Made by a program: the position numbers and the translations under genes
NCBI GenBank assembly: GCA_020050795.1
Contig: JAGVKD010000021.1
Location: 1-64,000, forward strand
Reading direction: 5' to 3'
Length of the DNA stretch: 64,000 bases
Origin: Candidatus Babeliales bacterium
Lineage (GTDB): Bacteria > Babelota > Babeliae > Babelales > Vermiphilaceae
Notes under the pieces: generated by a model
Told to the model about the DNA's origin: nothing
The model's database searches: none
Seen by the model: the letters and a program-made list of their open reading frames with translations, nothing else
Shown here: positions 5,465 to 57,766 of the stretch, in pieces
Numbering within the stretch: position 1 is the stretch's first letter
Layout: each line of letters begins with the position of its first letter

Positions 5465-5470
5465 GTCTGC

Positions 5471-5800: not shown

Positions 5801-5818
5801 AGTGGAATGTTTTTTTAT

Positions 5819-11637: not shown

Positions 11638-11661
11638 TGGATCGAGAAAAATGGGCAGGTG

Positions 11662-22041: not shown

Positions 22042-22701
22042 CTATGCTTTGCAACGAAGTCTCAGGACGTTAAGTATCTGAGCGTGGGAAAGGCAGCCAT
22101 CTTTTGTCAGCTCGCCCAATTGCGCTTGCAGCTCCTGAATTTTGATGATAATTGGCTTGTAGCCAGGCGTTGCTCTCATGGTTTCAATAAGAGCATTGAG
22201 TGACTGAGAAAAGGCATCAAATTTCCTACTTATTTCAATTTTCAGATTTCTTAATCGTAAGCCAACCAAAAGTGCAGTGCCCCCCTGATTTGCGCGCAGG
22301 ACAGTGCGGGTATAATCCATTATATTTGCCATTTCGTGCAGCAGAGCATTAGTTTGCTGTACCGGCTTATAGTTCACATTATGCTTATCTAGAGAGGCGA
22401 GAAGGGCTTCTATGGGAATGAATGTACAGGCTTTTGCCTCTGCATAGGTCTGATCAAAATCATCAACATGATCCGAGAAGCGGCGCGTATCGGTTGGCGA
22501 TAAGAAGGTGGCAAAGTTTTTAGCCAACTTCTGTGTGGAATTTGTAAGTGCATCTAATATTTCATCCAGCTTCTGAATGGTCTGCGCTGTGTGAGAGTCG
22601 GCATTGATAGTTTGCATTGATAGTATTGGCATCATTACTACGGGTGTAATCAGTCTCAGGAATGTGGCGCATGTAAAATTTTTTATGATAGAGCGCTTCA
22701 T
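22042..22701 (-). CDS. Exported helical protein, paired family (member 1)
   Basis: A 219-residue protein with an N-terminal export signal (about residues 10-35, ending INA). It is paralogous to the next gene along its length: F-(L/V)-SP-(T/A)-D-x-R, HVDDF-(D/E)-Q, IP-(I/M)-(E/D)-(A/T)-LLAS, YKPV-QT, MDF/Y-x-(R/Q)-(T/K)-xLRANQG, (T/K)-TPGY and a C-terminal LRxRCKA. The whole mature part looks alpha-helical. GGAAGG lies about 7 nt upstream. Both copies end in a basic RCK tail. Function unknown; separate terminators behind each copy allow independent expression levels. Confidence 0.75.
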   Translation of the reverse strand: MKRSIIKNFTCATFLRLITPVVMMPILSMQTINADSHTAQTIQKLDEILDALTNSTQKLAKNFATFLSPTDTRRFSDHVDDFDQTYAEAKACTFIPIEALLASLDKHNVNYKPVQQTNALLHEMANIMDYTRTVLRANQGGTALLVGLRLRNLKIEISRKFDAFSQSLNALIETMRATPGYKPIIIKIQELQAQLGELTKDGCLSHAQILNVLRLRCKA

Positions 22702-22846
22702 AGATAACCTTCCAGCGTTAGATATTTCTAATCAATAAAATCACTGTTAGATCACTATACTGTCTATGGTGATACCTTGAATAGAAAATGGGACAATAGA
22801 ATGATTTGGCCGAATTAAATTGCGGCGCCTGTAGATGAGACAAACA

Positions 22847-22875
22847 AAACGGGACGTATAATACGCCCCGTTTTT
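22847..22875 (-). terminator. Terminator of the gene at 22900
   Basis: Stem AAACGGG, one mismatch, CGTA / TACG, CCCGTTT with a 3-nt loop; flanked by T/A runs. Confidence 0.9.
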
Positions 22876-22899
22876 AATATCGTAATTTAAGAGATCAGA

Positions 22900-23577
22900 T
22901 TATTGCTTACAACGTTGTTTAATAACGCCAAGCATTTTAAACTGCTGAGCCATAGACATACCTTCGTCTTTCAAGAGCTCTCTCAATTCAACCTGAAGGG
23001 CTGTAACCTTGAGGGCAAGCTCATAATAGCCAGGTGTCGTCTTCATAGTTTCAGACAGCACAGCAAGTGCAACAAACACTTCTTGCAATTTCTCACGCGC
23101 AGTCGCTTTCATAGCGATCAGCTTTTTACCAAGCGCCGTAGGGTTTGTTACCCCTTGGTTTGCACGCAATGTTTTCTGGATAAAATCCATAATATGACCC
23201 ATTTTGTGCAATACCGTATGCGTTTGGAGCACTGGTTTATAGTCAGCGCTTTCCTTAGCTACAGAAGCAAGAAGGGTATCCATAGGGATCAATAAGTCAC
23301 GTTTCGCCGCTAGGTAACACTGCTCAAAGTCATCAACGTGGGCAGCATAAGGGCGTTTATCGGCAGGGGATACGAAAGCGGTCATTTTTTCAGACAACTC
23401 CATCGCATAACCCTGACCCAAGCAGAAGAACTCATCAAGTTTTTCTGTGATGCAGGATGTTTCTACTGATTGAGCATGTATAGTTTGAATAGATAAAGCC
23501 GGCACTACGACTGCTACGGGTGTAGCAAACATAAGTAGTGTGGCCAATGTGAATTTTTTAGTAGTATAGTTCTTCAT
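22900..23577 (-). CDS. Exported helical protein, paired family (member 2)
   Basis: A 225-residue paralog of the gene at 22042, with the same order of blocks (FVSPADKRPYAAHVDDFEQ, IPMDTLLASV, YKPVLQTHTVLHKMGHIMDF, LRANQG, MKTTPGYYELALKV, KQRCKQ). The export signal spans roughly residues 10-37 and ends IHAQS. GGGAGG is upstream. Two Cys near the mature N-terminus (SCITEKLDEFFCLG) are absent from the paralog. A 198-nt gap separates the two genes and holds the terminator of this one. No known family. Confidence 0.75.
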   Translation of the reverse strand: MKNYTTKKFTLATLLMFATPVAVVVPALSIQTIHAQSVETSCITEKLDEFFCLGQGYAMELSEKMTAFVSPADKRPYAAHVDDFEQCYLAAKRDLLIPMDTLLASVAKESADYKPVLQTHTVLHKMGHIMDFIQKTLRANQGVTNPTALGKKLIAMKATAREKLQEVFVALAVLSETMKTTPGYYELALKVTALQVELRELLKDEGMSMAQQFKMLGVIKQRCKQ

Positions 23578-24980: not shown

Positions 24981-25856
24981 ATGAAAAAACTATGTATAGC
25001 CGTCTTGCTGTTCTCTAGGATCAATGCAATGCAGCGTGTGGGGACTACAAGCAGGGCGGCAATCCAGGCTGGAAGAGCTATGCCACAAATGCTCAGTACT
25101 GCATCGCACAAGCCGCATACATTTGGTCCAAGAAGTCATCTTCAGAAACGAATGAACCAAGAAGAATATAGAATTATCCCGGGAGCAGATCTTCAGGGCG
25201 CTCATCTTGTCAAAGCAAATCTTGAGCATGCCGATCTGAGAGTGGCAAATCTGGTAGATGCTAATTTGTATGGGGCCAATCTTGTTGAAGCACAACTTAA
25301 TCAAGCAGATCTTACTCGTGCAGATCTTAGAGGTGCGCGTTTGATGAGGGCACACCTTTCGCATGCAACACTCACTAGTGCAAATTTTGAATTTGCTGAT
25401 TTGCAGCACGCAGACCTATCTGGGGCACATCTTTTTGGAGTTGATTTTGGCAATGCAAATCTTAAAAATGCAAACTTTAGATGGGCCGATTTGAGAGATG
25501 CAATGCTCGATGGTGCGAATCTTTCACAAGCAGATTTTCAAAATGCAAATCTGCAAGGCGCCCATCTGGTAGATAGCAATTGCAGCCATGCGAATTTTAG
25601 TAGGGCAAATCTGCAGGGAGTCGATTTTGATGGAGCAGATCTTTTAGGAGCAAAGTTCCATGGTACAGATTTGAGAGATGCAAAAAATCTTGATAAAGCA
25701 AAGAATGCAAATCTACGTGGCGCATTCTTTGGATATGCTCACGTGGTGAAAAAAACTTTTAACGAAAATAGAAAAGCGATTGCGGCGAATATACCGCAAG
25801 GTATCGGCGCATCTTGGTGGCAGAGATTTAAGAATTATCTTGGTTTTGCGCAGTAA
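24981..25856 (+). CDS. Exported pentapeptide-repeat protein
   Basis: A 291-residue protein with an N-terminal export signal (residues 1-17). From about residue 68 to 250 it consists of some 35 consecutive A(D/N)LxX pentapeptides (for example ADLQGAHLVKANLEHADLR), which fold as a right-handed quadrilateral beta-helix. Cytoplasmic relatives mimic DNA and bind gyrase, but an exported version more likely acts in binding at the periplasm or surface. A Gly-rich Trp-containing tail (GIGASWWQRFKNYLGFAQ) may be a membrane-contact segment. AAAGG lies upstream. Its last 29 nt overlap the convergent permease gene. Two other pentapeptide proteins are encoded at 34102 and 34677. Confidence 0.88.
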   Translation: MKKLCIAVLLFSRINAMQRVGTTSRAAIQAGRAMPQMLSTASHKPHTFGPRSHLQKRMNQEEYRIIPGADLQGAHLVKANLEHADLRVANLVDANLYGANLVEAQLNQADLTRADLRGARLMRAHLSHATLTSANFEFADLQHADLSGAHLFGVDFGNANLKNANFRWADLRDAMLDGANLSQADFQNANLQGAHLVDSNCSHANFSRANLQGVDFDGADLLGAKFHGTDLRDAKNLDKAKNANLRGAFFGYAHVVKKTFNENRKAIAANIPQGIGASWWQRFKNYLGFAQ

Positions 25857-29393: not shown

Positions 29394-29702
29394 ATGAAAA
29401 AATTTTTATTGAGTATGCTACTCATCCCAGCTTTGTGCTTTGCTAAAGCCACTCCAGAAGTGAGATTGGTTGATAGTGCACAGGCAGTCTTGGGTGAAAT
29501 GTTTGAAATGCTTGGTGATGATAAGCAAGGACAGCTAGAAAGACTGCGCGCTATAAAACGAATGTGCCAGAATGAATATTCGCAAGATAAAGATGCGCGG
29601 CGGGAATGTTTGTCATTTTTCATACTATGTTACCAAAGCAACAAATCTGAAAAAGCTATGATCGAGCTTTTTAAAGCCCATAATGATTTTATCAATTCAT
29701 AA
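29394..29702 (+). CDS. Small exported C-x13-C protein, four-copy family (member 1)
   Basis: A 102-residue protein with signal peptide (residues 1-17, ending CFA). The mature part has one Cys pair in the block CQNEYSQDKDARREC, that is Cys, 13 residues, Cys with a (D/N)ARR(D/E)C ending shared by the next two genes. It ends with AHNDFINS, matching YRNYINS and MTEFINS in members 2 and 3. AAGGGG is 7 nt upstream of the ATG. A conserved pair of Cys in an exported protein suggests a disulfide. No known family. Confidence 0.75.
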   Translation: MKKFLLSMLLIPALCFAKATPEVRLVDSAQAVLGEMFEMLGDDKQGQLERLRAIKRMCQNEYSQDKDARRECLSFFILCYQSNKSEKAMIELFKAHNDFINS

Positions 29703-29720
29703 AAAAATTTAGTTCAAAAA

Positions 29721-29747
29721 AGAGGGGACCTGAAAAGGCCCTTCTTT
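29721..29747 (+). terminator. Terminator
   Basis: AGAGGGG, bulged A, CC / GG, CCCTTCT with loop TGAAAA and a T-rich tail, following the gene ending at 29702. Confidence 0.75.
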
Positions 29748-29782
29748 ATTTGTTGGTAAAAAAGCGTATTCATTGGGGGTTC

Positions 29783-29810
29783 TTGAGCTTTTTCTCAATT
29801 TGAATAAGCT
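29783..29810 (+). promoter_or_regulatory. Promoter of the TTGA-N16/17-TAAGCT type
   Basis: TTGAGC, 16-nt spacer, TAAGCT followed by GGATGTGGGTA, nearly the same downstream sequence as at 28495 (GGAAGTGGGTA). Confidence 0.65.
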
Positions 29811-29848
29811 GGATGTGGGTAATAAATAACAATCAATTAGGGGTTTTT

Positions 29849-30157
29849 ATGAAAAGATTACTATTGGCAGCAAGTGTGTTTGCAGTTTCAGGAATAAGTG
29901 CTTCAAAGTCTCCAGAAGAAGAATTTATAGATAGCGTGCAGATAGGTAGAGAAATGCCTAATCAAGAGAAGCAAGAGTTTATAGAAAAGCTTCGTAAACT
30001 GAGACACTTTTGTCGAGATGAATATCCGAAAGATACAAATGCACGACGGGACTGTATGGAATTCTTTTCTAGTAGGGACTTAATCGAAACAGTGGAAAGT
30101 CATCCTTCTCAAGCCAGTAAGCTTTTTAAAGCTTATAGAAATTATATTAATTCATAA
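29849..30157 (+). CDS. Small exported C-x13-C protein, four-copy family (member 2)
   Basis: A 102-residue paralog with signal peptide KRLLLAASVFAVSGISAS. The family block reads CRDEYPKDTNARRDC, with 13 residues between the two Cys. The C-terminus is AYRNYINS. TTAGGGG lies 6 nt upstream of the ATG at 29849; an in-frame GTG twelve codons earlier would put the signal peptide internally and is rejected. Members 2, 3 and 4 follow one another at 11 and 30 nt and are one transcript. Function unknown. Confidence 0.75.
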   Translation: MKRLLLAASVFAVSGISASKSPEEEFIDSVQIGREMPNQEKQEFIEKLRKLRHFCRDEYPKDTNARRDCMEFFSSRDLIETVESHPSQASKLFKAYRNYINS

Positions 30158-30168
30158 GAAAGTTTTAC

Positions 30169-30552
30169 ATGAAAAAGTTACTACTCGCAGCAAGTTTTCT
30201 TGCAGTTTCCGGTATAAGTTCTGCGAATGTGCCAGCAGAAAAATCGTCAGCAAAAAAAGTGGCGACTCACTTAGCAGAAATTCTTAACTTAAACGATGCT
30301 GAGTGGCAACAGGCAGTAGATATGCTTATGGCTAAACAAAAAGAATGTCGTGAGGCTCATCCTGAGAAAGGATTTGCAAGACGAGAGTGTATGCAGACGT
30401 TTGGTGAGTTCGTGACGGCATATGTGAGTACGCAGAAACTGCTTCAAGTGACTGATCCTTCCAATCCACAAGCAAAGTTTATGGAAATGCAGATTCGAGA
30501 GTTTGTGCTTGGTTCTCTAGGAGCTCGGATGACAGAATTCATTAATTCGTAA
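30169..30552 (+). CDS. Small exported C-x13-C protein, four-copy family (member 3)
   Basis: A 127-residue paralog. The signal sequence KLLLAASFLAVSGISSANVP is almost the same as in members 2 and 4, and the Cys block is CREAHPEKGFARREC. It is longer than members 1 and 2 because of an extra helical stretch (LLQVTDPSNPQAKFMEM). The C-terminus is MTEFINS. The bases before the ATG, GAAAGTTTTAC, are identical to those before member 4 and lack a Shine-Dalgarno, evidence of recent duplication including the junction. Confidence 0.75.
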   Translation: MKKLLLAASFLAVSGISSANVPAEKSSAKKVATHLAEILNLNDAEWQQAVDMLMAKQKECREAHPEKGFARRECMQTFGEFVTAYVSTQKLLQVTDPSNPQAKFMEMQIREFVLGSLGARMTEFINS

Positions 30553-30582
30553 AGAAAAAAATAAACCAATAGAAAGTTTTAC

Positions 30583-30933
30583 ATGAAAAAGTTATTACTC
30601 GTAGCAAGCTTGCTTGCGATTTCCGGTATAAGTTCTGCGAATATACCAGCAGAAAAATCGCCAGCAGAAAAATTTGCTGATTGCACGGCAGAGATATTTG
30701 GATTTTCTGAAGTTGAGCGTCAAGAATTGAAAAAAAAGCTAGATTGGGTAAAGCAGGGGTGCGCTGAAGGAAATCCCAATCAAGGCGACCGTGATTTTTG
30801 CATGGCCTATTATGTGCAAGGGATGGTGAAGGCGGAACCAAAAATCGCGCGCTTTGAGAATGAGACAATGAAGCTGAAGCCGGCAGATCGGGAGCGTTTT
30901 CAGAGTGCTGGACTAGAATATATGTACAGATAA
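30583..30933 (+). CDS. Small exported C-x13-C protein, four-copy family (member 4, divergent)
   Basis: A 116-residue paralog. The signal and first mature residues (ISGISSANIPAEKSPAEKF) closely match member 3 (VSGISSANVPAEKSSAKKV). The Cys block is CAEGNPNQGDRDFC, one residue shorter and without the ARR. The C-terminus (LEYMYR) has also departed from the FINS ending. It therefore looks like the fastest-changing copy. A terminator and the second palindrome copy follow. Function unknown. Confidence 0.75.
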   Translation: MKKLLLVASLLAISGISSANIPAEKSPAEKFADCTAEIFGFSEVERQELKKKLDWVKQGCAEGNPNQGDRDFCMAYYVQGMVKAEPKIARFENETMKLKPADRERFQSAGLEYMYR

Positions 30934-31996: not shown

Positions 31997-33136
31997 TTAT
32001 ATCTCATCATTGAGAATTCTTTGCCGATAGTTCGCCATAAGCTGAACCATGAAGTGAAGATTGTGAATGGTTGCCAATATATGGCCAGTCACTTCTTTTG
32101 CTTTGAACAAATGGTGCAAGTAGGCGCGGCTATAGCGAGAGCATACACTGCAGCTGCACTGCGGATCAATCGGTCCAAAATCGGTACGATTGCTGCTGTT
32201 TAAAATTTTTACATCACCCTGAGTCGTGAACAGGAGCCCATGGCGTGCACAGCGGGTCGGGTGAGAACTATCAAAGGTATCAACACCCAGTGTGATGCAT
32301 GGTTCAAGCGAGGCAAGATCGGCAATGCCAAGCAGATGGTTTGGCGCCTCAGTTGGAATACGTGGCATGAGCAGCGTGAGCATTTCGATCATCTGTTCTT
32401 TTGTTTTGCCAAGCGATCCACCGATAGCAAAGCCATCGAAAGGCAAATTGGTCAAAAACTCTGCACTTTCTTTGCGCATTTCAGGATCGATGCCACCATG
32501 GATCACAGCATACATTGCCTGATTTTGTGGATTGGCCAAATGGGCATCAAGAGATCGTTTTTCCCAGCGATGGGTGCGATCGAGTGAATTTTTTAATTTT
32601 TGTGCGCTGATATGGTAGGGCGGTAGTTCATCGAAAGGGATGATAATATCGGCGCCTAAATCTTTTTGAGCAGCAACGGAGGTTTCTGGTGTGAGAAGCA
32701 CTTTTGCGCCATCACGATAGGAACGGAAAAGAACGCCATCTTCAGAAATATTGAGCACGGCATTATTGGCCGTTTTTTGTCCGCGGCTTTTGAGTTCATC
32801 TTTGACGGTACCATATGCCAAACTAAAAACCTGAAACCCACCAGAATCGGTGATGATTGGTGTGGTGCGGTTCATGAATTTGTGCAGGCCGCCCGCCTCC
32901 TTGATCGTTTGCGTTCCTGGTTGCAGCATGAGGTGGTAGGTGTTGCAAAACATCAATTGCAGGCCAACATCGTGAGCAAGGGCGCTATCGACAGCTTTCA
33001 TGGTCGCATTGGTACCGACACCCACGAAATTGGGCGTGTCGATGATGCCATGGGGCGTGTGGATCCTGCCAACGCGTGCACGGGATTTTTTAGATGTATG
33101 AATCAGTTCAAAATGAAATGGTTTTTTTAGAGTCAT
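31997..33136 (-). CDS. tgt: tRNA-guanine transglycosylase Tgt
   Basis: A 379-residue enzyme that exchanges G34 for a 7-deazaguanine precursor in tRNAs of the queuosine pathway. Visible are VGVGTNATMKAVD, NTYHLMLQPG, the catalytic-loop Asp97 in ITDSGGFQVFSL, GIADLASLEPCITLGVDTFD-SSHPTR(C)ARHG, and the zinc site Cys327, Cys329, Cys332 and His358 with the family's exact spacing. The ATG at 33136 gives the normal length; an alternative ATG at 33166 would add 10 residues. The start codon lies inside a 12-bp inverted repeat. A queuosine-precursor carrier is encoded 4 kb away. Confidence 0.97.
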   Translation of the reverse strand: MTLKKPFHFELIHTSKKSRARVGRIHTPHGIIDTPNFVGVGTNATMKAVDSALAHDVGLQLMFCNTYHLMLQPGTQTIKEAGGLHKFMNRTTPIITDSGGFQVFSLAYGTVKDELKSRGQKTANNAVLNISEDGVLFRSYRDGAKVLLTPETSVAAQKDLGADIIIPFDELPPYHISAQKLKNSLDRTHRWEKRSLDAHLANPQNQAMYAVIHGGIDPEMRKESAEFLTNLPFDGFAIGGSLGKTKEQMIEMLTLLMPRIPTEAPNHLLGIADLASLEPCITLGVDTFDSSHPTRCARHGLLFTTQGDVKILNSSNRTDFGPIDPQCSCSVCSRYSRAYLHHLFKAKEVTGHILATIHNLHFMVQLMANYRQRILNDEI

Positions 33137-33177
33137 AGCCTGAAAACGTAAAGTAACACTTCTCATTTTCAGGCTAT
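33135..33177 (-). promoter_or_regulatory. Perfect 12-bp inverted repeat at the tgt start
   Basis: ATAGCCTGAAAA (33135-33146) and TTTTCAGGCTAT (33166-33177) are perfectly complementary, 19 nt apart. In mRNA the hairpin would hide the tgt ATG and the AGG just before it. It lies between the stop of the gene at 33222 and tgt on the same strand. Confidence 0.65.
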
Positions 33178-33221
33178 TGATTAAAGAGTAGGTCGTCAAA
33201 TTTTATTCGAGCTAAAAAGGG

Positions 33222-34091
33222 CTATTCATTGCGCCAATTGAACAATCGCTTGATACGAGCGACCCAAGAGGTCGTTGGTTCTTCCTCTTCCTCTTTTCCT
33301 TTACCCGTGTCGACGGGCCTTGGTGCCGGCTCTAGTTTTGGTTGGGTAGAGGTTGGCGATTTTAGCTTTTTCATTTCTGTTAAAAAGTCTTTTTCAATTG
33401 CGTTGATTGCTTCAACCGATTCAATTGCGTTGATTTTTTCGACCGACGAAGGTTCTTGTATTTTCAGAGAGGTTTCTCCCGCTTTGGATTCTGGTATAAA
33501 GTTTTTTTGTGAAAGGTCCTCTAATGGCTTGAGAACAGTTCGGTACATTATAGCAATAAACTCTTTATCGAGTTTTTCGAGTTGCTCATTAATTTTTTGA
33601 TTTTTCTCTTGTTCTTCTTTAGTTTTGGCTGTTTCTTCTGCAAGGAATTTATTTAAAAATTGTCTATCTTCCCTTAAATATGGAATCAATTCTTTATTAA
33701 TCTCGGCAAAAGCTTGTTCGTAGGTGACAGTAGGTTTTTCTATTTCTTTTTTAAGCTCATCTTGTTTGTCGGTGACAGTAAGTTTTTCTATTTCTTTTTT
33801 AAGCTCATCTTGTTTGTCGATGACAGTAAGTTTTTCTATTTCTTTTTTAAGCTCATTAAGCGCGCTTACCACAAGGGCTTCCCGTGCTCCAAGCATATTC
33901 AATTCATTCTCGCTGCGGCGCGCCTGATATACATACCTATAAACGGCACATGCTGTCGCGATACCAACCGCACAGAGTGCTGCATTTTTGTGTTCAACGA
34001 TCCAACCCCAAGCATCTTGATACCAAACTGCATGCGCAGGCTGTGGTGCCAGCAGGGCGAGAGCGAGAATTAGTGCTTTTATTTGTTTCAT
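33222..34091 (-). CDS. Anchor-module protein with coiled-coil domain
   Basis: A 289-residue protein, last of a four-gene operon. Residues 1-21 are a signal peptide identical at protein level to that of the next gene; residues 22-55 (W-Y-x-D plus KNAALCAVGIATACAVY) form the shared second hydrophobic segment, ending in Arg-rich sequence. The rest is coiled coil, starting with three tandem 16-residue repeats (DELKKEIEKLTVTDKQ), then a helical region, a Pro-rich linker (PTSTQPKLEPAPRPVD) and an acidic/basic tail. GGAG is 7 nt upstream of the ATG at 34091. Positive residues after the second segment favour a cytoplasmic C-terminal domain if the signal is cleaved; this is inference. Confidence 0.78.
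   Translation of the reverse strand: MKQIKALILALALLAPQPAHAVWYQDAWGWIVEHKNAALCAVGIATACAVYRYVYQARRSENELNMLGAREALVVSALNELKKEIEKLTVIDKQDELKKEIEKLTVTDKQDELKKEIEKPTVTYEQAFAEINKELIPYLREDRQFLNKFLAEETAKTKEEQEKNQKINEQLEKLDKEFIAIMYRTVLKPLEDLSQKNFIPESKAGETSLKIQEPSSVEKINAIESVEAINAIEKDFLTEMKKLKSPTSTQPKLEPAPRPVDTGKGKEEEEEPTTSWVARIKRLFNWRNE
33716..33859 (-). repeat. Three in-frame 48-bp tandem repeats
   Basis: Three copies encoding (D/N)ELKKEIEK(L/P)TV(I/T)(D/Y)(K/E)Q in the coiled-coil gene. Copies are nearly identical in DNA, so they are young or kept uniform by slippage. Confidence 0.9.
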
Positions 34092-34101
34092 TGATAGTCT
34101 C

Positions 34102-34680
34102 CTATTTTTGTAATGTCTGTATATCAATCCAGGTTTTGTTGCGCATCACGGTGCCATATGCGCCTGCAAATTTTGTGCCTGCAATGGATGCACCCGTAAG
34201 ATCTGCACCCGAAAGATTTGCGCCACTCAGATCTGCATCATTTAAATTTACGCGCACAAGAGTTGCGCCTTTCAGATTTGCATTTTTTAAAATTGCTCCG
34301 CCAAGAATTGCACCGGTAAGATTGGCATGCAAGAGGTTTGCCCTAGTTAAGTCTGCTCTGCTTAGGTTTGCGCCCACTAGATTTGCGCGCTTGAGATTTG
34401 CATTCTGAAGTTGTGTCATGTTTTCCTTTGTGCCATGCAGATCAGCTTTCTCAAGGTCTACGCCCGGACACATCAAATATTCGATACCATATATTGTTCG
34501 CCGGTCATCGCAGCGTGTGAGCTGATAGGTCACCGCGCATGCGGCAGCAATACCAACAAGACAGAGCGCAACATTTTTTTGTTCAACAACCCAATTCCAA
34601 ATATTGTCATACCATGCTGCGTGCGCGGGTTGTGGTGCCAGCAAGGCGAGGGCGAGAATGAGAGCTTTTATTTGTTTCAT
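34102..34680 (-). CDS. Anchor-module protein with pentapeptide repeats
   Basis: A 192-residue protein. Residues 1-21 are the shared signal peptide; over this segment it differs from the gene at 34091 only at synonymous sites. The second hydrophobic segment follows (KNVALCLVGIAAACAV), then a motif shared with the next gene (RC(D/N)DRRTI-x-x-(I/V)-EYL(M/I)CP). Residues about 72-165 are some 18 pentapeptides (NLKRANLVGANLSRADLTR). It overlaps the upstream gene by 4 nt. The beta-helix would present a rod-like surface next to the membrane. Function unknown. Confidence 0.82.
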   Translation of the reverse strand: MKQIKALILALALLAPQPAHAAWYDNIWNWVVEQKNVALCLVGIAAACAVTYQLTRCDDRRTIYGIEYLMCPGVDLEKADLHGTKENMTQLQNANLKRANLVGANLSRADLTRANLLHANLTGAILGGAILKNANLKGATLVRVNLNDADLSGANLSGADLTGASIAGTKFAGAYGTVMRNKTWIDIQTLQK

Positions 34681-36656
34681 GAATTTTCCTTCACCAATGT
34701 ATTACGCGTCCCTTCTAATTTTTTTATGAATGATGTTTTGAGTTGTGTGAGTTCTGCCATTGCTTTCTTATCATTTTTCTTAGTGTCATATTCTAGATCC
34801 ATGAAGGTGCGAATTGCTTTGAATCTCTCTTTAATTTCTCGAATCTTGTTACTTTTTTGTGCTGCTTGTTTAGGCAGTTCCACTTTTTGATCGAGATAAA
34901 GCGGTAGGATTTCAAGCGTGTTTTTGAGTGGTTCAAATTCAGATTTGAGAGTTTTTCCTGTGGCATATATGGTTGCGGCCAACGATTTTTTTATGTCGCT
35001 TAGTGGGCCGACGGTGTTGGCGCCTGAAGGTCGTGCGCTCTCAATAGTTTTTTCTATCTGATCAAAATAGACATAGAGTTCTGCTATTGGCGTTTGCTCA
35101 ATCATGAGTGGGCGAATTGTTACTTTCAGGCGATTGGTAAAAGATTCTTTAATTGCATTGATAAGCGATTCTTTATCATGCAGACGAGTGTAGGTGATGG
35201 TTCCATCTTTTTTATTTTCTTTAAATGTATTTTTTATGATGGTAGCAACCCAGCCATCAATATCGGTGAGTGTCCATAGTGTCGTACGTATTTTTTTAAA
35301 AAGGTCTTCAAGGAGTGTTTTGATTTCATGTTCTGAATAATTTTTTTTGCGCAACTTTTGTTCGGCAGGTTTCATATATTTATAAAATTCGCGCGCAGGG
35401 CGATCGACAAATTTATTGTGCACTTTCAACAATGCGGGATATGGCTGAATGCTCTCGGTTAACTCAGTGAGCGATTCAAGATAGTGTTTGCCAAGTGCAA
35501 CATGTGGAGTAAAGATTGTGTCCACTGTTTTCAGATAATTTTTTATCAAAGAGTTTTCTTGTTTAGGTTTTTCAATCGGTTGCGCAGCAGTTTTTTTTGT
35601 AGTGGGTGCCGCTTGTTTTACCTCAGTTGTTTTAATTGTTTCTTGTTTTTTGGATTCAGATTTTGTTTCCGCAGGAACCGTAGGCGCAGTGACTTGCGTT
35701 TCAGGCATCTCTATACCTTTTGGGGCTTGGATGATTGCTGTTTCGTTCGTTGGCGCTTGTGCGATTTCAGTTGGTTTGTGCGGTAGGGTAGCACTTATTT
35801 TTTTGGCAATTTTTAGTTTGCTAGGTTCTTCGCGGACTGTATCGATGGTTGGTTTTTGCACAAAAACTTCAGTCGGGCCCGCTTCTTTTTGCATTATCAG
35901 CTGCCTAGATTGTGGCACATGTGAACCTTGCTTAGGTTCTATGAAAGTGGCAGAAGTAGTCGATTGCAGACGAGCTGTGGTTGCCGTTGCCACAGTAGTG
36001 TTGATATTGGTTGTCTTCTCTCTGAGTCGTGGTTTGCTTTTTTCAATATTTATGGCTGGCTCAGTTTCATGAATAGTTGCTTTTGGTAAAGTGGGTTGGA
36101 GATTGAATTTAAATGATGGTGTTCTTCTTTTTATATTCATTATCGATGGTTGGACACCACGGGCTTTAAAACCTCTGATGCCTTCAATAGTGGCTCCCTC
36201 AAAATTTGCATCAGTGAAAATTGCATCGGTAACGTCGGCATAACTAAGATTTGCGTTTTTAAAATTGGCGCCACTCAAATCAGCTTTATAGAAATTTACG
36301 CGCGTAAGATTTGCGCCGCTCAGATTTGCATTTTTTAAGATCGCTTCGCTAAGAACTGCGCCTTCAAGGTTTGCCCGTCTGAGATCTGCTTTCTGAAGGT
36401 CTGCATTCTGAAGATTTTTTCCTGCAAGATTTGCATCGGGACATATTAAATATTCAACGTTATTTATTGTTCGCCGATCATTGCAGCGCGTTGCGTATTT
36501 ATATGCTATTGAGCAGGCAGTAGCCAGACCAAGAGTGCACAATGCTGCATTCTTGTTTTCAACGGCCCAATTTAAAAGATCATCCCACCATCCAGCGTGC
36601 GCAGGCTGTGGTGCCAGCAAGGCAAGAGCAAGAAAAAGTGTTTTGATCTGTTTCAT
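34677..36656 (-). CDS. Anchor-module protein with pentapeptides and large C-terminal domain
   Basis: A 659-residue protein. The signal peptide is that of the two downstream genes with two substitutions; the hydrophobic segment (KNAALCTLGLATACSIAYKY), the RCNDRRTINNVEYLICP motif and about 17 pentapeptides (to residue 155) follow. Then comes a long Thr/Pro/Lys/Glu-rich linker (about 160-400) and a 250-residue helical domain (YPALLKVHNKFVDRPAREFYKY onward) with no recognised homology. The ATG at 36656 opens the signal peptide; the 25 codons upstream are rejected. The large linker suggests the helical domain reaches away from the membrane. Confidence 0.8.
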   Translation of the reverse strand: MKQIKTLFLALALLAPQPAHAGWWDDLLNWAVENKNAALCTLGLATACSIAYKYATRCNDRRTINNVEYLICPDANLAGKNLQNADLQKADLRRANLEGAVLSEAILKNANLSGANLTRVNFYKADLSGANFKNANLSYADVTDAIFTDANFEGATIEGIRGFKARGVQPSIMNIKRRTPSFKFNLQPTLPKATIHETEPAINIEKSKPRLREKTTNINTTVATATTARLQSTTSATFIEPKQGSHVPQSRQLIMQKEAGPTEVFVQKPTIDTVREEPSKLKIAKKISATLPHKPTEIAQAPTNETAIIQAPKGIEMPETQVTAPTVPAETKSESKKQETIKTTEVKQAAPTTKKTAAQPIEKPKQENSLIKNYLKTVDTIFTPHVALGKHYLESLTELTESIQPYPALLKVHNKFVDRPAREFYKYMKPAEQKLRKKNYSEHEIKTLLEDLFKKIRTTLWTLTDIDGWVATIIKNTFKENKKDGTITYTRLHDKESLINAIKESFTNRLKVTIRPLMIEQTPIAELYVYFDQIEKTIESARPSGANTVGPLSDIKKSLAATIYATGKTLKSEFEPLKNTLEILPLYLDQKVELPKQAAQKSNKIREIKERFKAIRTFMDLEYDTKKNDKKAMAELTQLKTSFIKKLEGTRNTLVKENS

Positions 36657-36666
36657 ATGAATCTCG

Positions 36667-37008
36667 TTATTGTTTTTCAACATCTTGTATTGTGGCAGGT
36701 GCGACTGTGGGTTTTTGTTCTTTATTTTCAATTACCGGATTCGTTGGCTGGATATCTTCTTCCACATCATCGCCTTCATCTTCGAATGCAGCTCTTAACA
36801 CAAGGCGTGCTCCTATATAGCAAGCAGCGCCAATACCAAGCCAGCAGGCCCATTTTTGGAGTGTTGGAGAATTTTGAAATGATTGTGGCAAATGATTCCA
36901 GATAGATGTTCCGATAGAGCTGGCCGTGTCTGAAAACCAGTTAGCATATGTTTGATGCGGCACTAAGATAATGGCCAGGCCAAGAAATAATGTTTTGAAA
37001 TGCTTCAT
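36667..37008 (-). CDS. Small membrane protein heading the modular operon
   Basis: A 113-residue protein, first in the four-gene unit, 10 nt upstream of the next gene. Its signal peptide (MKHFKTLFLGLAIILVPHQT) is a diverged form of the shared one, and a W-F-x-D start to the mature part and a second hydrophobic segment (CWLGIGAACYIGARLVL) keep the same plan. The C-terminus is acidic then Pro/Thr-rich (EDEGDDVEEDIQP). AAGGGGT precedes the ATG. It may be the small partner or ancestor of the three modular proteins. Function unknown. Confidence 0.72.
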   Translation of the reverse strand: MKHFKTLFLGLAIILVPHQTYANWFSDTASSIGTSIWNHLPQSFQNSPTLQKWACWLGIGAACYIGARLVLRAAFEDEGDDVEEDIQPTNPVIENKEQKPTVAPATIQDVEKQ

Positions 37009-37128: not shown

Positions 37129-37800
37129 TTACTTTTTGCCAGGGAAGACAAAATGGCGTGAAAAGGCTACCAACGGTGTTCCCACCGCTATTGCGATCAA
37201 TTTGATCAGGTAGCTCACCAGAATAATATGGCCAATATTGGAAACGAGACCATAAAGCCCGAGAAGGCTGAAAAGAATGGTATCAACCAATTGGCTGACA
37301 GACACAGAGGCATAGTTGCGTGCAACGAGCCATTTGTGCGTCCAGATACGGCGCAGGAAGCCATAGAGCAGGTAATCAACATTTTGTGAAATAAAGAAGG
37401 CGATAAATGAGGCTACGATAATGCGGGGCATTGGCGTGAGCAGCAGGCTAAAAGCGCCTTGAGAGATATCAAAGGTACTTGGCATATACCACAGGTGTAT
37501 TTGTGGAATAATGGCGAAAAAAATGAGGGCAAAAAAATTGATGTAGATTGTTTTTTTGGCAATCTCACGTCCAAAATATTCTTGCAGTAGGTTCAAGCCT
37601 AGGGTGGCGCCAATGGTGAATGCATCAGCACAGGTGGCAGAAAACCCAAAGATGGTGATCTGCTTGAGAACGAATAAGTTTGCAAGTACGCACTGGAGAG
37701 AAATAAAGGCTACAAGAGCGCTTTGTCCCAGGCCCAGGCTGGCCAACATCGCCCCGACAATAATGAGCGTGTGAACCAGAAAAATGATCTCATTTGGCAT
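37129..37800 (-). CDS. yhhQ: Queuosine-precursor transporter (YhhQ/VUT family)
   Basis: A 223-residue membrane protein with six hydrophobic helices and the family landmarks: FGFSATCADAFTIGATLGLNLLQEYFGREIA, MPRIIVASFIAFFISQNVDYLLY and the NYASVSVSQLVDTILFSLLG block. Members import preQ0/preQ1 or queuine-type bases for queuosine synthesis. The ATG at 37800 has AGGAGC 7 nt upstream. Only tgt of the pathway is seen nearby, consistent with salvage from the host. It lies upstream of the modular operon on the same strand, separated by 120 nt. Confidence 0.9.
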   Translation of the reverse strand: MPNEIIFLVHTLIIVGAMLASLGLGQSALVAFISLQCVLANLFVLKQITIFGFSATCADAFTIGATLGLNLLQEYFGREIAKKTIYINFFALIFFAIIPQIHLWYMPSTFDISQGAFSLLLTPMPRIIVASFIAFFISQNVDYLLYGFLRRIWTHKWLVARNYASVSVSQLVDTILFSLLGLYGLVSNIGHIILVSYLIKLIAIAVGTPLVAFSRHFVFPGKK

Positions 37801-37913
37801 TAAAAAGCTCCTAGATGCCTTTAGTATAGCGCAAAATCGGGCGGGGGGCGATGACAAAAGCCCTAAGATCTGCTACTTTTAAAGTATATTTGGAAATTGT
37901 GTGGGGGATTTTT

Positions 37914-39294: not shown

Positions 39295-39498
39295 ATGAAG
39301 ATCAAAGCAATTCTTATCACTCTGTTGCTTGCAACAGCAACACCGATGCAGGCGCAAAAATCTTTGGACGAGTATTCATTACGGACTAAACAAGCAGGAT
39401 TGCACATTCTCAAGAATCCTGAGCTTCGTAAAAAGCTTCTTGCACCAAAACAAGAGAAAACTTGGTGGCAAACTTTTACAGGCTGGTTTGGATTTTAA
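39295..39498 (+). CDS. Very small exported protein
   Basis: A 67-residue protein: signal peptide (residues 1-20, ending MQAQ), a short charged helix (SLRTKQAGLHILKNPELRKKL) and an aromatic C-terminus (TWWQTFTGWFGF) that could insert in a membrane. A similar Trp-rich end closes the pentapeptide protein at 24981. AAGGGGTGGGGT precedes the ATG. Its stop lies 3 nt from the convergent murB stop. Function unknown. Confidence 0.65.
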   Translation: MKIKAILITLLLATATPMQAQKSLDEYSLRTKQAGLHILKNPELRKKLLAPKQEKTWWQTFTGWFGF

Positions 39499-49410: not shown

Positions 49411-50232
49411 TTATTTATCAGTTTTTTTGCTTTCTGCAGCATCTAATGTTTTCTTGCGCAACTTTAATAGATCAAGTTGTGTTTTTGTCAGATGTTGTCC
49501 GCGTGCCGATAGGAAGGCATCAAAGATAGATGGCTCAAATTTTGCAGCATCTCGTGCAGCCTCGACGCAATAATTATTTGCACAAAATGATGCAGCAAAA
49601 AGAGCATCCACTTCGTTTAAAGAAGTTTCTTTATCTCCAGCAAGAGCGGCTTCCAACTTCCTGCAATGGAGTGTGTATTCTGTAAATGGATCAGCTTGCC
49701 ACCGCGCAAGCGCCGTTTTTGCTGCTTGGCCTGCTAATTGTAAGATAGCTTTGCCTTCAGGGGTGTCTGCTTTTTCTAATACTCGCTCAGCAATATTAAC
49801 TGCTTGCGCGGCGAAAATTTGAGCGCGTAGAATGGCGTCCACTCCGGGTATAGTTTCCACTGCTTTTGCCATGTCCGCTGCTTCATCGGATTCTCCAGCG
49901 GTTAGCGCCAACGGATTTGAAGCTTTTCTTTTCGGTTGAGATGAGGGTGCGTATTGTTTTGATTGAGAGATGGCAGGATCTGCCTCGAGAGCTGCTTGCC
50001 GAGCCGCTTTTTCTGCCTGATCAAGATCCATTTCCACTTCCATGTGAGTTCTTGCACCGACGATCAAACCGTGACGGGCATTTGCCTCAAGGGCCGCCCG
50101 CCTAGTCGCTTCCATCTCGACTTCAAAAAGAGAAACGAATGGGCGATGATCTGTGACATCGCCCGGTTGCATGCCCAAGGCAGAGGATGCGATTCCGCTT
50201 GCGGTGATGAGGAGGAAAATATTTTTTTTCAC
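49411..50232 (-). CDS. Exported helical protein, paired signal family (member 1)
   Basis: A 273-residue protein starting with GTG at 50232 (AAGGAAG upstream). The signal peptide (FLLITASGIASSALG) and mature start MQPGD closely match the upstream gene (LLLIAASSITSSAMG, MNLGA). The mature part is helical, Ala-rich and charged, with a central Pro/Lys segment (SSQPKRKASNPLAL) and two Cys close together (ASFCANNYCVEAA). Two AALEA(N/D) stretches hint at an internal repeat. Function unknown. Confidence 0.72.
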   Translation of the reverse strand: MKKNIFLLITASGIASSALGMQPGDVTDHRPFVSLFEVEMEATRRAALEANARHGLIVGARTHMEVEMDLDQAEKAARQAALEADPAISQSKQYAPSSQPKRKASNPLALTAGESDEAADMAKAVETIPGVDAILRAQIFAAQAVNIAERVLEKADTPEGKAILQLAGQAAKTALARWQADPFTEYTLHCRKLEAALAGDKETSLNEVDALFAASFCANNYCVEAARDAAKFEPSIFDAFLSARGQHLTKTQLDLLKLRKKTLDAAESKKTDK

Positions 50233-50278
50233 GAGCAGCTTCCTTGTGTATCTTTTTTAATTTCTTAATTTTTAAAAC

Positions 50279-50641
50279 TTATTCAGTTTTTTCTTTCGCT
50301 ATTTCTTCTGGGTTGTTTGTTTCAGCAGGAACGGGACTTGTTTTAATTTCTTCAATCTCTTTTACATCATCGAAAGCGTGGGCTGCGCGTTCAATTCCAT
50401 CATTTAGTTGGCTCAGTAATGTTTTTTCGCCACGAGATTTTGCCTCGGCCTCTCGTCGATTCCAGAGTGCTGGTAGTTGCCCCGGATAGAGTTTTCCACC
50501 TTGGCGAGCCTGAAGTTCTGCTATTTCTTGGTCTTCGAGATCTTCGTCTAACATTTGTGAAAACATTGCTCCAAGATTCATACCCATTGCTGAAGATGTG
50601 ATGCTGCTCGCAGCGATGAGTAATAGAAGATTCATTTTCAT
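50279..50641 (-). CDS. Small exported helical protein, paired signal family (member 2)
   Basis: A 120-residue protein with AAGGA 6 nt upstream. The signal peptide is shared with the gene downstream (46-nt gap), but the mature part is different: acidic helix (DEDLEDQEIAELQARQGG), then Arg/Glu-rich helix and an acidic Pro-containing tail. The pair is probably one transcript. It illustrates the reuse of one export signal with unrelated mature domains, as in the operon at 33222-37008. Function unknown. Confidence 0.68.
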   Translation of the reverse strand: MKMNLLLLIAASSITSSAMGMNLGAMFSQMLDEDLEDQEIAELQARQGGKLYPGQLPALWNRREAEAKSRGEKTLLSQLNDGIERAAHAFDDVKEIEEIKTSPVPAETNNPEEIAKEKTE

Positions 50642-54392: not shown

Positions 54393-54935
54393 CTAGAGCT
54401 TACTTCTCTGTGTTGTTTGGCTCAATTTGTTCATGATGCCTTGTTTGTGCTGGTTAAGCATTACCAGAAAAGAGGCAGCATATTTTTCATCAGGAGTGAG
54501 AACTTTGTAGCCCGAATAATTGATTGGGGTCTTTTCAAGCCAGCCATCAATTATCTGTTGCTGACTTGCCTGTGGTGGATTGGGTAATGCACGTAGAGCT
54601 TGAATAAATGTTGCTATATGTGTGCGCCCATCAATCATGCATTGACCTATCATACAAGGTGTGAATTCGACGCGAGAGGCCAGATTTTGATGGCTTAACA
54701 CAAAGACAGTCTTAGCTATTGGCGATATATGTTGCGCAGGCAATTTTCTCGTTAACTGCGTCAAGAGAATGTTGCCTGCAAATATATCAAGCATGAGAGG
54801 ATGCATTGTTCCACCCAGGATGGCGCGCGAGAGCTTGAGCTGCTCCATGCGCTGCATCTCATCATCGTTGTTCATGCAATTGATAGTCTTGATGTTTGTT
54901 AGTAGAAGGAGTGGGATAATGAATCGTCTCTTCAT
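54393..54935 (-). CDS. Exported protein, seven-copy tandem array (copy 7, last)
   Basis: A 180-residue protein with signal peptide (IIPLLLLTNIKTINC) and mature start MNNDDE. Family traits: a HPLMLDIF box near residue 44 (HPM(I/M)xAI in others), a middle domain with paired Cys (PCMIGQCMIDG), and the C-terminal block I-x-x-W...L...YAASFLVML. It lies 3 nt after the upstream copy without a Shine-Dalgarno, so it depends on coupled translation. Function unknown. Confidence 0.75.
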   Translation of the reverse strand: MKRRFIIPLLLLTNIKTINCMNNDDEMQRMEQLKLSRAILGGTMHPLMLDIFAGNILLTQLTRKLPAQHISPIAKTVFVLSHQNLASRVEFTPCMIGQCMIDGRTHIATFIQALRALPNPPQASQQQIIDGWLEKTPINYSGYKVLTPDEKYAASFLVMLNQHKQGIMNKLSQTTQRSKL

Positions 54936-54938
54936 AAA

Positions 54939-55427
54939 TTATTTACTTTCGTTAGATTGTTTAGTTCTTTTTTGCAGTTCATGGAAAAATAATGCGGCAT
55001 ATTGTGCTCTTGCCAATGCAATATTTTTAATTGCGGTTCGCTGAGGTTCAGGAAGCGCAGCAAGATATATTTCTCTATTGGCCAGGAGCCATGCCTGAAT
55101 GGTGCCTTCTCGTGCCCATGAGGAATCTATGAAATATGCCGCTTGGGAAATAAATATATCGAGAGCAGCGAGAGTACTATGTTGTTTAGACTGAAGCAAT
55201 TTTTGTTGCACCATACTATCTAGGCCGGTGAGCGGAAAATTAGTTTGTACTGTGTTTGTGCCGCGCTTCCTGGTCAGTGAACATGCCAAGGAACAAGTGT
55301 GTTCGTCTATTTTGCTCAGTTCGATTTCCTTTTCATCAATCGCCTTGATCATGGGATGAGAATCTTTCATGCAATTGAGACTGTTGATGCTGGTCAATAG
55401 GATGAGTGAAAGAAAAAAACGCTTCAT
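54939..55427 (-). CDS. Exported protein, seven-copy tandem array (copy 6)
   Basis: A 162-residue protein: signal LSLILLTSINSLNC, mature start MKDSHPMIKAID, then LTGLDSMVQ, and the C-terminal module GTIQAWLLANREIYLAALPE and QYAALFFHELQKR. Those two C-terminal blocks match copy 5 almost residue for residue, while the middle parts differ, so the array evolves with conserved ends and a variable centre. Gap to the upstream copy is 3 nt. Confidence 0.75.
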   Translation of the reverse strand: MKRFFLSLILLTSINSLNCMKDSHPMIKAIDEKEIELSKIDEHTCSLACSLTRKRGTNTVQTNFPLTGLDSMVQQKLLQSKQHSTLAALDIFISQAAYFIDSSWAREGTIQAWLLANREIYLAALPEPQRTAIKNIALARAQYAALFFHELQKRTKQSNESK

Positions 55428-55430
55428 ACA

Positions 55431-55931
55431 TTACTTGCCTTCTTTAATTAGCATCTTTCTTTTTTTCAATTCATGGAAAAATAATGCGGCATATTGTTCC
55501 TCTTTGTATTTAAGCTGTTTTATTTTTTTTCGTTCAGGTTCTGGAAGAGTAGCGAGTGATGCGTCCCTATTTTCATCCAGCCACCGACTAATCGTGCCTT
55601 TATCTGCCCATGGGCATGCGACATTTTGGACAATAAAGAGATCAATCACGCCGAGCGTCGACCAACCATATGTTTTAGGGTCGTCTTGTGTTGCTACAAC
55701 ATCGAGTCCTGTGAATAGAAAATTAAGACTTTGGGGAGCAGATGGCGATGATCTGAGTTGTTCGCATATTCTTTCAAGAAAATAGCTAGACTCTCGTCTG
55801 TAGAGTTTGATCAATCCTTCATCTATTGCCGTCATCATGGGGTGAGGAGAGGATTTTTTTTCTTCCTCCATGCAATTGAGCGAGTTACTGCTGGTTAGCA
55901 GGATGAGCGAAAGAATAAATATTTTTTTCAT
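55431..55931 (-). CDS. Exported protein, seven-copy tandem array (copy 5)
   Basis: A 166-residue protein: signal LSLILLTSSNSLNC, mature start MEEEKKSSPHPMMTAIDEGLIKL, middle FLFTGLDVV shared with copy 6 (FPLTGLDSM), and C-terminal GTISRWLDENRDASLATLPE plus EQYAALFFHELKKR. With copy 6 it is the closest pair in the array, probably the most recent duplication. Function unknown; extracytoplasmic. Confidence 0.75.
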   Translation of the reverse strand: MKKIFILSLILLTSSNSLNCMEEEKKSSPHPMMTAIDEGLIKLYRRESSYFLERICEQLRSSPSAPQSLNFLFTGLDVVATQDDPKTYGWSTLGVIDLFIVQNVACPWADKGTISRWLDENRDASLATLPEPERKKIKQLKYKEEQYAALFFHELKKRKMLIKEGK

Positions 55932-55950
55932 GGTTTATTTACTGTTAATT

Positions 55951-56565
55951 TTATTTCGATTCTTTAATTGTTTCCAATATTTCTGGTTTTTTTTCACGCA
56001 GTTGATACAAAAAGCACGCGGCATATTTTTCTAAATTTGATTCTAAATATTTAATTTCTTTTCGTTGTGACCGTTTCAAAGTTTTTAAAAATTCCTTTCG
56101 GTGCTTTTTGCGCCACGCTTTGATGGTAGATTTTTCTGCCCACCATGGCACATGTTCCAAATCGCGACTTGCGGCAATAAATGATGTAATAGTTTCTATA
56201 GGATTACATCCAACTTGCTCAAAATCGTATGCATCGAAGCTTTTGAGATCTCTGAAAATATCATGAGAATCATCCGCATCATCAGTGGGGCGTTTGCAGA
56301 GTTCAAAAAAGGGAGTTTTCTTAGTGGTTACGAGCCAAGATTCAGCAATAGGTTTTTGCAAACTATAGAGATGTTGAGTTCCTGGCATGAAAATATTTCG
56401 TTCCTGTTGCCCAACTTGCCCAAAATCGCCGGTCACATCTCGTCTCATCTCCACGAGTTTGATCTCTGCAGTCAACAGAGCCTGGATCATGGGATGGGGT
56501 TCTTCCTCCATGCCATGCAGTGTGCTTATGGTTACAAAAATGATGAGTGAGATGAAACGTTTCAT
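55951..56565 (-). CDS. Exported protein, seven-copy tandem array (copy 4)
   Basis: A 204-residue protein: signal ISLIIFVTISTLHG, mature start MEEEPHPMIQALLTAEIKLVEM, a longer centre (SLQKPIAESWLVTTKK) and the C-terminal module STIKAWRKKHRKEFLKTLKR and EKYAACFLYQLREK. The residue before the mature Met is Gly here where four other copies have Cys, which argues that this position is a signal peptidase I -1 site and not a lipidated Cys. Function unknown. Confidence 0.75.
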   Translation of the reverse strand: MKRFISLIIFVTISTLHGMEEEPHPMIQALLTAEIKLVEMRRDVTGDFGQVGQQERNIFMPGTQHLYSLQKPIAESWLVTTKKTPFFELCKRPTDDADDSHDIFRDLKSFDAYDFEQVGCNPIETITSFIAASRDLEHVPWWAEKSTIKAWRKKHRKEFLKTLKRSQRKEIKYLESNLEKYAACFLYQLREKKPEILETIKESK

Positions 56566-56583
56566 GCCTTATTTATTCCCTCA

Positions 56584-57240
56584 TTATTCTTTTTCTAGTG
56601 GTGCGTCTGTTGCTTTTGCGCTCTCTTGTTTTGCTTTTTCTTCAAGCCGCGCGATGATGTCTTCTTTGTGAGTTTTTAACTCATTAAAGAAAATCACTGC
56701 ACCCCAAAAACCTCTTTCCTTAATCCATGCTAACGATTCTAATTCTTCTGAGGGACAGTCTTCGTATACATCTTCCATGAAGCACTCAAAAGCATCAATG
56801 GCCTCTTGAGTTTCTGGGGTATCCTTATGATCTTTTTCAAATGAAAAATTATATGCAGCAAGATTCATAAAATCTCCGCGAAACGTGCGGCCTTGTTTAT
56901 TGGTGAACCTGAGCCAGTATCCTTCCTCTTGCCATACTCTTGAAGGGGATTTGAGAGATTTGTGGAGCTGTGTCGATTCTACAAGTTCGATTTCTCCATC
57001 CAAAATCGCTTTGGTGATTAAACTTTGTGGTTTCCATGCAGCTGGAGTTGAAGATTTTGATTTTTGAAATTCTGTAATCTTTCCTTCAATCCAGACATCG
57101 ATATCGATATCATCCTCCTCCATTTTCCTCAAGGTAAGATCATCTAGCAAACCACCGTTTACGTCAGGTGATCCTTCCATGCAATGGAGTGTGCCGATGG
57201 TTGCAAAAAGCAATGAGAGAATTGTGAGATTTCTTTTCAT
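56584..57240 (-). CDS. Exported protein, seven-copy tandem array (copy 3)
   Basis: A 218-residue protein: signal ILSLLFATIGTLHC, mature start MEGSPD, an extra acidic segment (KMEEDDIDIDVW), then blocks shared with copy 2: W(K/E)P(Q/K)SLI-x-KA(I/L)LDG-(E/K)I-x-L, F-x-N-x-QG and G(D/N)FMN-x-x-AY. The C-terminal module is more distant (FFNELKTHKEDI). Copies 2 and 3 thus form a second closely related pair in the array. Function unknown. Confidence 0.75.
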   Translation of the reverse strand: MKRNLTILSLLFATIGTLHCMEGSPDVNGGLLDDLTLRKMEEDDIDIDVWIEGKITEFQKSKSSTPAAWKPQSLITKAILDGEIELVESTQLHKSLKSPSRVWQEEGYWLRFTNKQGRTFRGDFMNLAAYNFSFEKDHKDTPETQEAIDAFECFMEDVYEDCPSEELESLAWIKERGFWGAVIFFNELKTHKEDIIARLEEKAKQESAKATDAPLEKE

Positions 57241-57253
57241 GATTATTCTCTTT

Positions 57254-57766
57254 CTAGGGACTTTGTGTCTTTCCGCGTTCTTGTTTTGCTTTTTGTTTCA
57301 ATTGAGTGAGTACTGTTTTTTTGTTACGTGAAAATTCATTTAAGAAGTGTATGGCATCATGGGGTAGATCGCTATTTTGCCAATCCGACTTGTCGAATAG
57401 AAGAGTAGCCTTGCTGGCAGATTTAACGAAATGTCTAACAGTATCTATGCATACAATTGTGCTGTATGTATGGCGTTCAGAAGATATGCTATCTAATGGC
57501 TCATATGCATCAACATTCATAAAGTTGCCTTGGATCTTATGTCCCTGATTATTAACAAAGGCGAGTTGATAACCTTTTTCCTGCGACAAACCGGAATCGG
57601 ATCCTATTGGCTGGTGTATTTGTCTCGTCTTGATAAGTGAGATTTTGCCATCCAAGAGTGCTTTCATGATTAAACTTTTTGGTTCCCATGGTGCAGCTTC
57701 GCTTTCCATGCAATGGAGTGTGCCGATACTTCCAAGTAACATGAGAGCTATGAAATTTTGTTTCAT
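57254..57766 (-). CDS. Exported protein, seven-copy tandem array (copy 2)
   Basis: A 170-residue protein: signal IALMLLGSIGTLHC, mature start MESEAAPWEPKSLIMKALLDGKISLI, then FVNNQGHKIQGNFMNVDAYE as in copy 3. The C-terminal part reads DAIHFLNEFSRNKKTVLTQL. AAGGA lies 8 nt upstream and the ATG overlaps the stop of copy 1 by 4 nt. Its C-terminal KQKAKQERGKTQSP resembles EEKAKQESAKATDAP of copy 3. Function unknown. Confidence 0.75.
   Translation of the reverse strand: MKQNFIALMLLGSIGTLHCMESEAAPWEPKSLIMKALLDGKISLIKTRQIHQPIGSDSGLSQEKGYQLAFVNNQGHKIQGNFMNVDAYEPLDSISSERHTYSTIVCIDTVRHFVKSASKATLLFDKSDWQNSDLPHDAIHFLNEFSRNKKTVLTQLKQKAKQERGKTQSP

Follow-up and report, generated by a model that had tools for sequence, protein, structure and literature searches.

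The genes at positions 33222-37008 of the window (the whole 64,000-nucleotide stretch analysed here, from a Candidatus Babeliales bacterium of the phylum Candidatus Dependentiae (TM6)) are a real lineage-specific family of proteins sharing one leader, a modest finding alone and a more interesting one as an instance of a pattern seen again, with an unrelated leader, at this chromosomal site. The operon is made up of four co-directional minus-strand ORFs (D, C, B and A) and lies between a yhhQ-like gene and a gene which we take to be tgt (recognised by its sequence, without a family scan), co-directional with both. We give an even chance to the reading that the family arose by local duplication of a gene with a Sec-targeted anchor in its 5' part and that the 3' part was then replaced or extended, with tails that would be cytoplasmic scaffolds. 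The features of the region are as follows, the N-terminal part shared by the genes being called the module.

37129-37857, minus strand: yhhQ-like (Vut_1) flanking gene (PF02592, E = 2.5e-30)
36667-37008, minus strand: gene D, head of the operon, 113 aa (signal peptide, NWFSD, amphipathic stretch, second hydrophobic segment, acidic tail)
about 36796-36852, minus strand: second hydrophobic segment of D
34677-36656, minus strand: gene C, 659 aa (module, pentapeptide domain, linker, helical domain)
36594-36656, minus strand: signal peptide of C
36549-36593, minus strand: Trp-rich segment of C, GWWDDLLNWAVENKN
36495-36548, minus strand: second hydrophobic segment of C, weak (KD17 maximum 1.32)
36177-36443, minus strand: pentapeptide-repeat domain of C (PF00805, E = 8e-26)
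35562-36161, minus strand: low-complexity linker of C
34680-35561, minus strand: predicted helical domain of C, orphan (low-confidence helical model)
34102-34680, minus strand: gene B, 192 aa (module, pentapeptide domain)
34618-34680, minus strand: signal peptide of B
34573-34617, minus strand: Trp-rich segment of B, AWYDNIWNWVVEQKN
34522-34572, minus strand: second hydrophobic segment of B (KD17 maximum 1.93)
34159-34482, minus strand: pentapeptide-repeat domain of B (PF00805, E = 4e-32)
33222-34091, minus strand: gene A, 289 aa (module, coiled-coil-like charged tail)
34029-34091, minus strand: signal peptide of A, 21 codons
33984-34028, minus strand: Trp-rich segment of A, VWYQDAWGWIVEHKN
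33936-33983, minus strand: second hydrophobic segment of A (KD17 maximum 1.57)
33713-33856, minus strand: three 48-bp repeats of A, 16-residue unit DKQDELKKEIEKLTVT
31997-33199, minus strand: tgt (queuine tRNA-ribosyltransferase) flanking gene, with a single homologue in 28 of 29 same-family genomes

The stop codon of C overlaps the start codon of B as ATGA. Genes A, B and C have a common start, MKQIK[AT]L[IF]LALALLAPQPAHA, with W at +2, followed by KN-(A/V)ALC-x-(V/L)G(I/L)A-(A/T)AC. The unusual point is this near-identical leader, since tandem secreted paralogues themselves are common in the window: leader identity is 90-100% among A-C, versus 25-85% in the other tandem secreted clusters. 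Six more such clusters of small signal-peptide genes are found in the window (5144-6160, 11131-12399, 22042-23577, 29394-30933, 49411-50641 and 54393-58464); the pair at 49411-50641 has 67% leader identity and unrelated mature parts.

The signal peptides of A and B are the same protein, and our recount agreed exactly with the original prediction that they (starting at 34091 and 34680) differ at seven nucleotides, all synonymous, out of 63. Without constraint, the chance of seven synonymous changes out of seven is about 1e-4 for random changes and about 5e-4 for transitions only. The signal peptide of C has two residues unlike those of A and B, and the A-C and B-C comparisons give 10 and 12 nucleotide differences, respectively, each with two nonsynonymous codons. 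Among A-C, nearly all codon differences within the signal peptide are synonymous, whereas most of those in residues 22-57 change the amino acid (Fisher P = 0.0008, 0.006 and 0.002), and dN is 0-0.04 in the signal peptide versus 0.24-0.38 in residues 22-50 (small samples). The contrast bears out the earlier view that the module is under protein-level constraint, here for the leader. Gene conversion of the 5' ends could account for the similarity of the signal peptides with no need of unusual protein-level selection and would fit the short tract in tandem copies. We consider it very improbable, as dS in the signal peptides (0.63, 0.79 and 1.38) is strongly diverged and comparable to that in residues 22-50 (1.1, 1.3 and 1.2; small samples), and all seven A/B differences are synonymous. 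With synonymous sites so well diverged (dS 0.6-1.4), neither recent copying nor conversion is needed.

Gene D has the same architecture and weak similarity to A-C (profile E = 0.007 per genome; blastp E = 1e-4). Lipoproteins were considered and rejected by inspection, because the lipobox L-(A/S)-(G/A)-C is absent and the first hydrophobic region of A-C ends in PAHA without Cys.

Profile searches of the same genome with the module and with the leader gave strong matches to the four operon genes only, the next-best leader match having E = 0.003 (18 bits); the leader is thus no generic signal peptide found throughout the genome. In the 315 kb (about 29% of the genome) covered by our scan of ORF architectures, a crude rule assigns a signal-peptide-like start to about 46% of ORFs, close to the value of about 44% of proteins given for Chromulinavorax in passages of PMC6561590. 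A signal peptide with Trp within 8 residues and a second hydrophobic segment was otherwise seen there in three proteins, which have further hydrophobic stretches. A further pentapeptide protein of the window (24981-25856) has a signal-peptide-like start without the second hydrophobic segment. Several signal-peptide proteins of this genome carry Trp-rich amphipathic C-terminal tails (SWWQRFKNYLGFAQ, TWWQTFTGWFGF, SWWYQRAWDWAKEKVLNNI and ISGWWK; window 25812-25856 and 39463-39498, G000:C7 61869-63992 (L187:1869-3992) and L192:13209-15683), one of which resembles WYQDAWGWIVEHK of the module, and W(W/Y/F) occurs in the last 20 residues at about twice the rate elsewhere, a pattern that relatives do not have. 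The protein at L187:1869-3992 (707 aa) has a signal-peptide-like start, ankyrin repeats and a WD40 propeller.

No module homologue was found in 84,980 species genomes or 2.9 million viral contigs, where there were pattern matches and none was confirmed, and no convincing one in 28 same-family relatives; consequently there are no tails elsewhere to tabulate by searching related genomes with the module, as the original prediction had envisaged. Weak matches in relatives (G015, E = 5e-4; G031, G009 and G037) look alike in having a signal peptide, W or K and a small-residue hydrophobic segment before GH1, phosphatase or unknown tails; they fall short of convincing homology and were therefore not counted as tails of the operon module. 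In relatives, a signal peptide and hydrophobic segment precede a GH1 glycosidase and two calcineurin-like phosphatases (L011:109-1671, L208:4870-6414 and L136:12744-14087).

Turning to the tails, B and C align over residues 1-174 and 1-155, respectively (53% identity over 180 columns, E about 1e-53), and C is B plus about 490 residues of linker and predicted helical domain. Because B and C are homologous through the pentapeptide domain, the operon has two tail types plus an extension, not three, and the earlier statement that the tails are unrelated is correct for A and not for B and C. The tail of A is unrelated to B and C after about residue 66 and is the one unrelated tail among A-C: nucleotide identity between A and B is about 67-80% until, around codon 50-65, it collapses to the random level over a few codons. 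No similarity between the tail of A and B or C was found in any frame, which also disposes of a frameshift origin. The three 48-bp repeats reported for the coiled-coil gene were confirmed in A, for which we found no Pfam family; among A-C, A alone matched an anti-phage defence library, with one weak match (E = 0.002). B and C exceed the Pfam cut-off of PF00805 (109.8 and 89.7 bits versus 20.2). For the helical domain of C no clear homologue was found in the 28 same-family genomes, and for its linker none in the DNA compared. Structure models had pLDDT of 47 (C tail) and 35 (B), too poor for a fold search.

Ordinary tandem duplication and divergence, in which the tail of A is old and unrecognisable or was independently extended without any special tail exchange, is a credible alternative, although we put it somewhat below an even chance. 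B and C are plain paralogues, most of the six other secreted-paralogue clusters in the 64 kb have recognisable mature homology and drifting leaders, and synonymous divergence near 1 means time enough for the tails to diverge. The drop of A/B identity to random near codon 50-65, however, is not what this account leads one to expect, and a further difficulty for it comes from a sister genus. As the searched collections hold no module homologue, the case for tail replacement is built on A together with the analogous, non-homologous family of that genus.

In 8 of the 19 family genomes with short-range linkage, yhhQ and tgt are adjacent (13-261 bp), whereas in the other 11, that of the window included, lineage-specific genes lie between them, and the intervening genes seen mostly have signal-peptide starts. 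In the sister genus g32 (two species, G037 and G039), nine tandem genes in this interval, seven in G039 and two in G037, share one leader, MKRFMLVSLMSCMLVGQ(V/I)SC, exact or drifted. Homology between this leader and that of the window was rejected (hhalign probability 0.4%), and neither the operon module nor the g32 leader was found in the other family genomes searched. We infer that the yhhQ-tgt interval tolerates insertion and has repeatedly taken in lineage-specific genes for secreted proteins in related genera, one other genus having a leader-sharing family there.

Two gene pairs of g32 have homology that ends at or just past the signal peptide. In G037, g1 and g2 are 90% identical over about 130 nt upstream (128 aligned), 92% in the signal peptide and 44% thereafter; in G039, the corresponding values for f3 and f4 are 94%, 90% and 59%. 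Since in G037 non-coding upstream DNA was kept and mature coding DNA was not, plain drift is excluded and either replacement or very strong diversification is needed. The same contrast, upstream DNA about 90% identical beside unalignable mature DNA, cannot be produced by the drift that simple tandem divergence supposes. These pairs are independent evidence for kept leaders with changed tails. Pairs with a conserved leader and an unalignable mature part numbered 16 of 17,310 among signal-peptide genes versus 0 of 34,992 among others; note that the pairs are not independent and that most positives come from one cluster. Such leader similarity was found in none of 24,564 cross-genus pairs between the genome of the window and g32, and all 33 within-genome cases of similar leaders lie at most 12 kb apart. 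A second cluster in G037 (L251:13847-16190, contig C15) has a leader like that of the g32 yhhQ-tgt genes, with two similar mature parts and one unrelated. Another G037 protein (L201), whose Cys/His pattern suggested a Josephin-like protease, had no Pfam or PDB sequence support and was not accepted as such.

Topology was assigned simply by counting charges. Net charges before and after the second hydrophobic segment are -1/+1 in A, -1/+1 in B and -2/+3 in C. Being net acidic before and net basic after the segment, the proteins should, by the positive-inside rule, be N-out/C-in, predicting that the tails face the bacterial cytoplasm and not outward; an inner-membrane anchor presenting cytoplasmic scaffolds is therefore favoured. 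Relatives have proteins of loosely similar architecture, and these follow the charge rule inconsistently. Of the original proposal of an export and anchor module, the shared segments are real, and export of the tails is doubtful from the charge pattern; we found nothing to support the accompanying suggestion that the products assemble on one membrane structure. In the duplication and tail-replacement reading, Sec would recognise the signal peptide, and cleavage would fall at AHA|(A/V/G)W, where the leader has a standard site for signal peptidase I. The 15 residues that follow, Trp-rich and amphipathic, would rest against the inner membrane on its periplasmic side. The Ala/Gly/Cys-rich segment would then work as a stop-transfer helix, leaving the coiled coil, the pentapeptide solenoid and the helical domain of the tails in the cytoplasm as scaffolds for binding.

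With its no more than moderate hydrophobicity (1.32 in C), the second segment might fail to stop transfer, which opens the way to an export reading: the weak segment would let the protein cross and later anchor in another membrane, host- or surface-facing, with the tails in contact with the host. Dependentiae live as intracellular parasites, about 44% of their proteins carry signal peptides (passages of PMC6561590), repeat proteins are regarded as effectors in the phylum, and the similar N-termini of relatives precede GH1 glycosidase and calcineurin-like phosphatase domains. We regard this reading as a serious though less likely rival, as Babela is reported to have a type II secretion system only (in the part of PMC4378268 considered), we identified no machinery for moving a Sec-exported membrane protein outward, and A, B and C all show the positive-inside pattern.

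Several known systems resemble the operon in part. Conotoxin precursors have a conserved signal and a hypervariable mature part, and the same is reportedly true of a peptide precursor family in a study of Myticalins. Such families likewise combine a conserved signal peptide, a divergent mature region and a local multigene arrangement; the genes described here, in contrast, are bacterial and encode larger proteins, whose mature parts are unrelated and not hypermutated within one scaffold. Like the pentapeptide-repeat proteins of PF00805 (HetL, PipB/PipB2, Alr5209), B and C carry the repeat domain, but it is led by a signal peptide and hydrophobic anchor, and they fall far below every named equivalog cut-off (best 69 bits versus an NCBIfam cut-off of 125 for the HetL, Qnr, MfpA, PipB and Alr5209 families), so that none of these names applies. 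DotG/IcmE of Dot/Icm similarly has a membrane anchor followed by a pentapeptide-like stretch and matches C weakly (23.4 bits, E = 1.4e-5, versus an NCBIfam cut-off of 750), but the match covers residues 20-166 of C only, the repeat part, against an internal stretch of the 1008-position model, and the identity was rejected. In the same phylum as the window, Babela massiliensis and Chromulinavorax destructans have expanded lineage-specific families of secreted and membrane proteins in genomic islands, although the passages concerned (PMC4378268, PMC6561590) describe neither leader-sharing families with exchanged tails nor the yhhQ-tgt interval.

The closest parallel is the terminal reassortment of type III effectors (Stavrinides, Ma and Guttman 2006, as described in a passage of PMC7406222), from which the principle of a kept signal with a new C-terminus is already known. 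There too an N-terminal secretion signal is conserved and the C-terminal parts are unrelated, as in A versus B and C and in g1/g2 and others in G037 and G039, and upstream DNA is also shared, as in the g32 cluster and not in the window operon. Unlike in those effectors, the leader here is of the Sec type, judged by its sequence, the copies are tandem, and in the window the shared part includes the second membrane segment. A limited literature search found no description of tandem reassortment with Sec leaders in Dependentiae.

The presence, in the same place in relatives, of an unrelated family built alike suggests that this route to new envelope proteins has been taken repeatedly. We tentatively propose that Dependentiae repeatedly make new envelope or secreted proteins at the permissive yhhQ-tgt interval, where a locus-specific leader cassette (the signal peptide, with upstream DNA in some species and the second membrane segment in the window) would be kept and new mature sequences attached to it, a Sec-based terminal reassortment that would have arisen in two or more genera from unrelated leaders. 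Thanks to the sister-genus clusters, the idea of kept leaders and renewed tails can be tested, and the leader offers a handle for finding new cluster members and testing their topology. In a Dependentiae isolate, nearly half of the proteins have signal peptides and many are orphans (passages of PMC6561590); the origin of such orphans would be easier to account for if a local process retained leaders while renewing what follows them.
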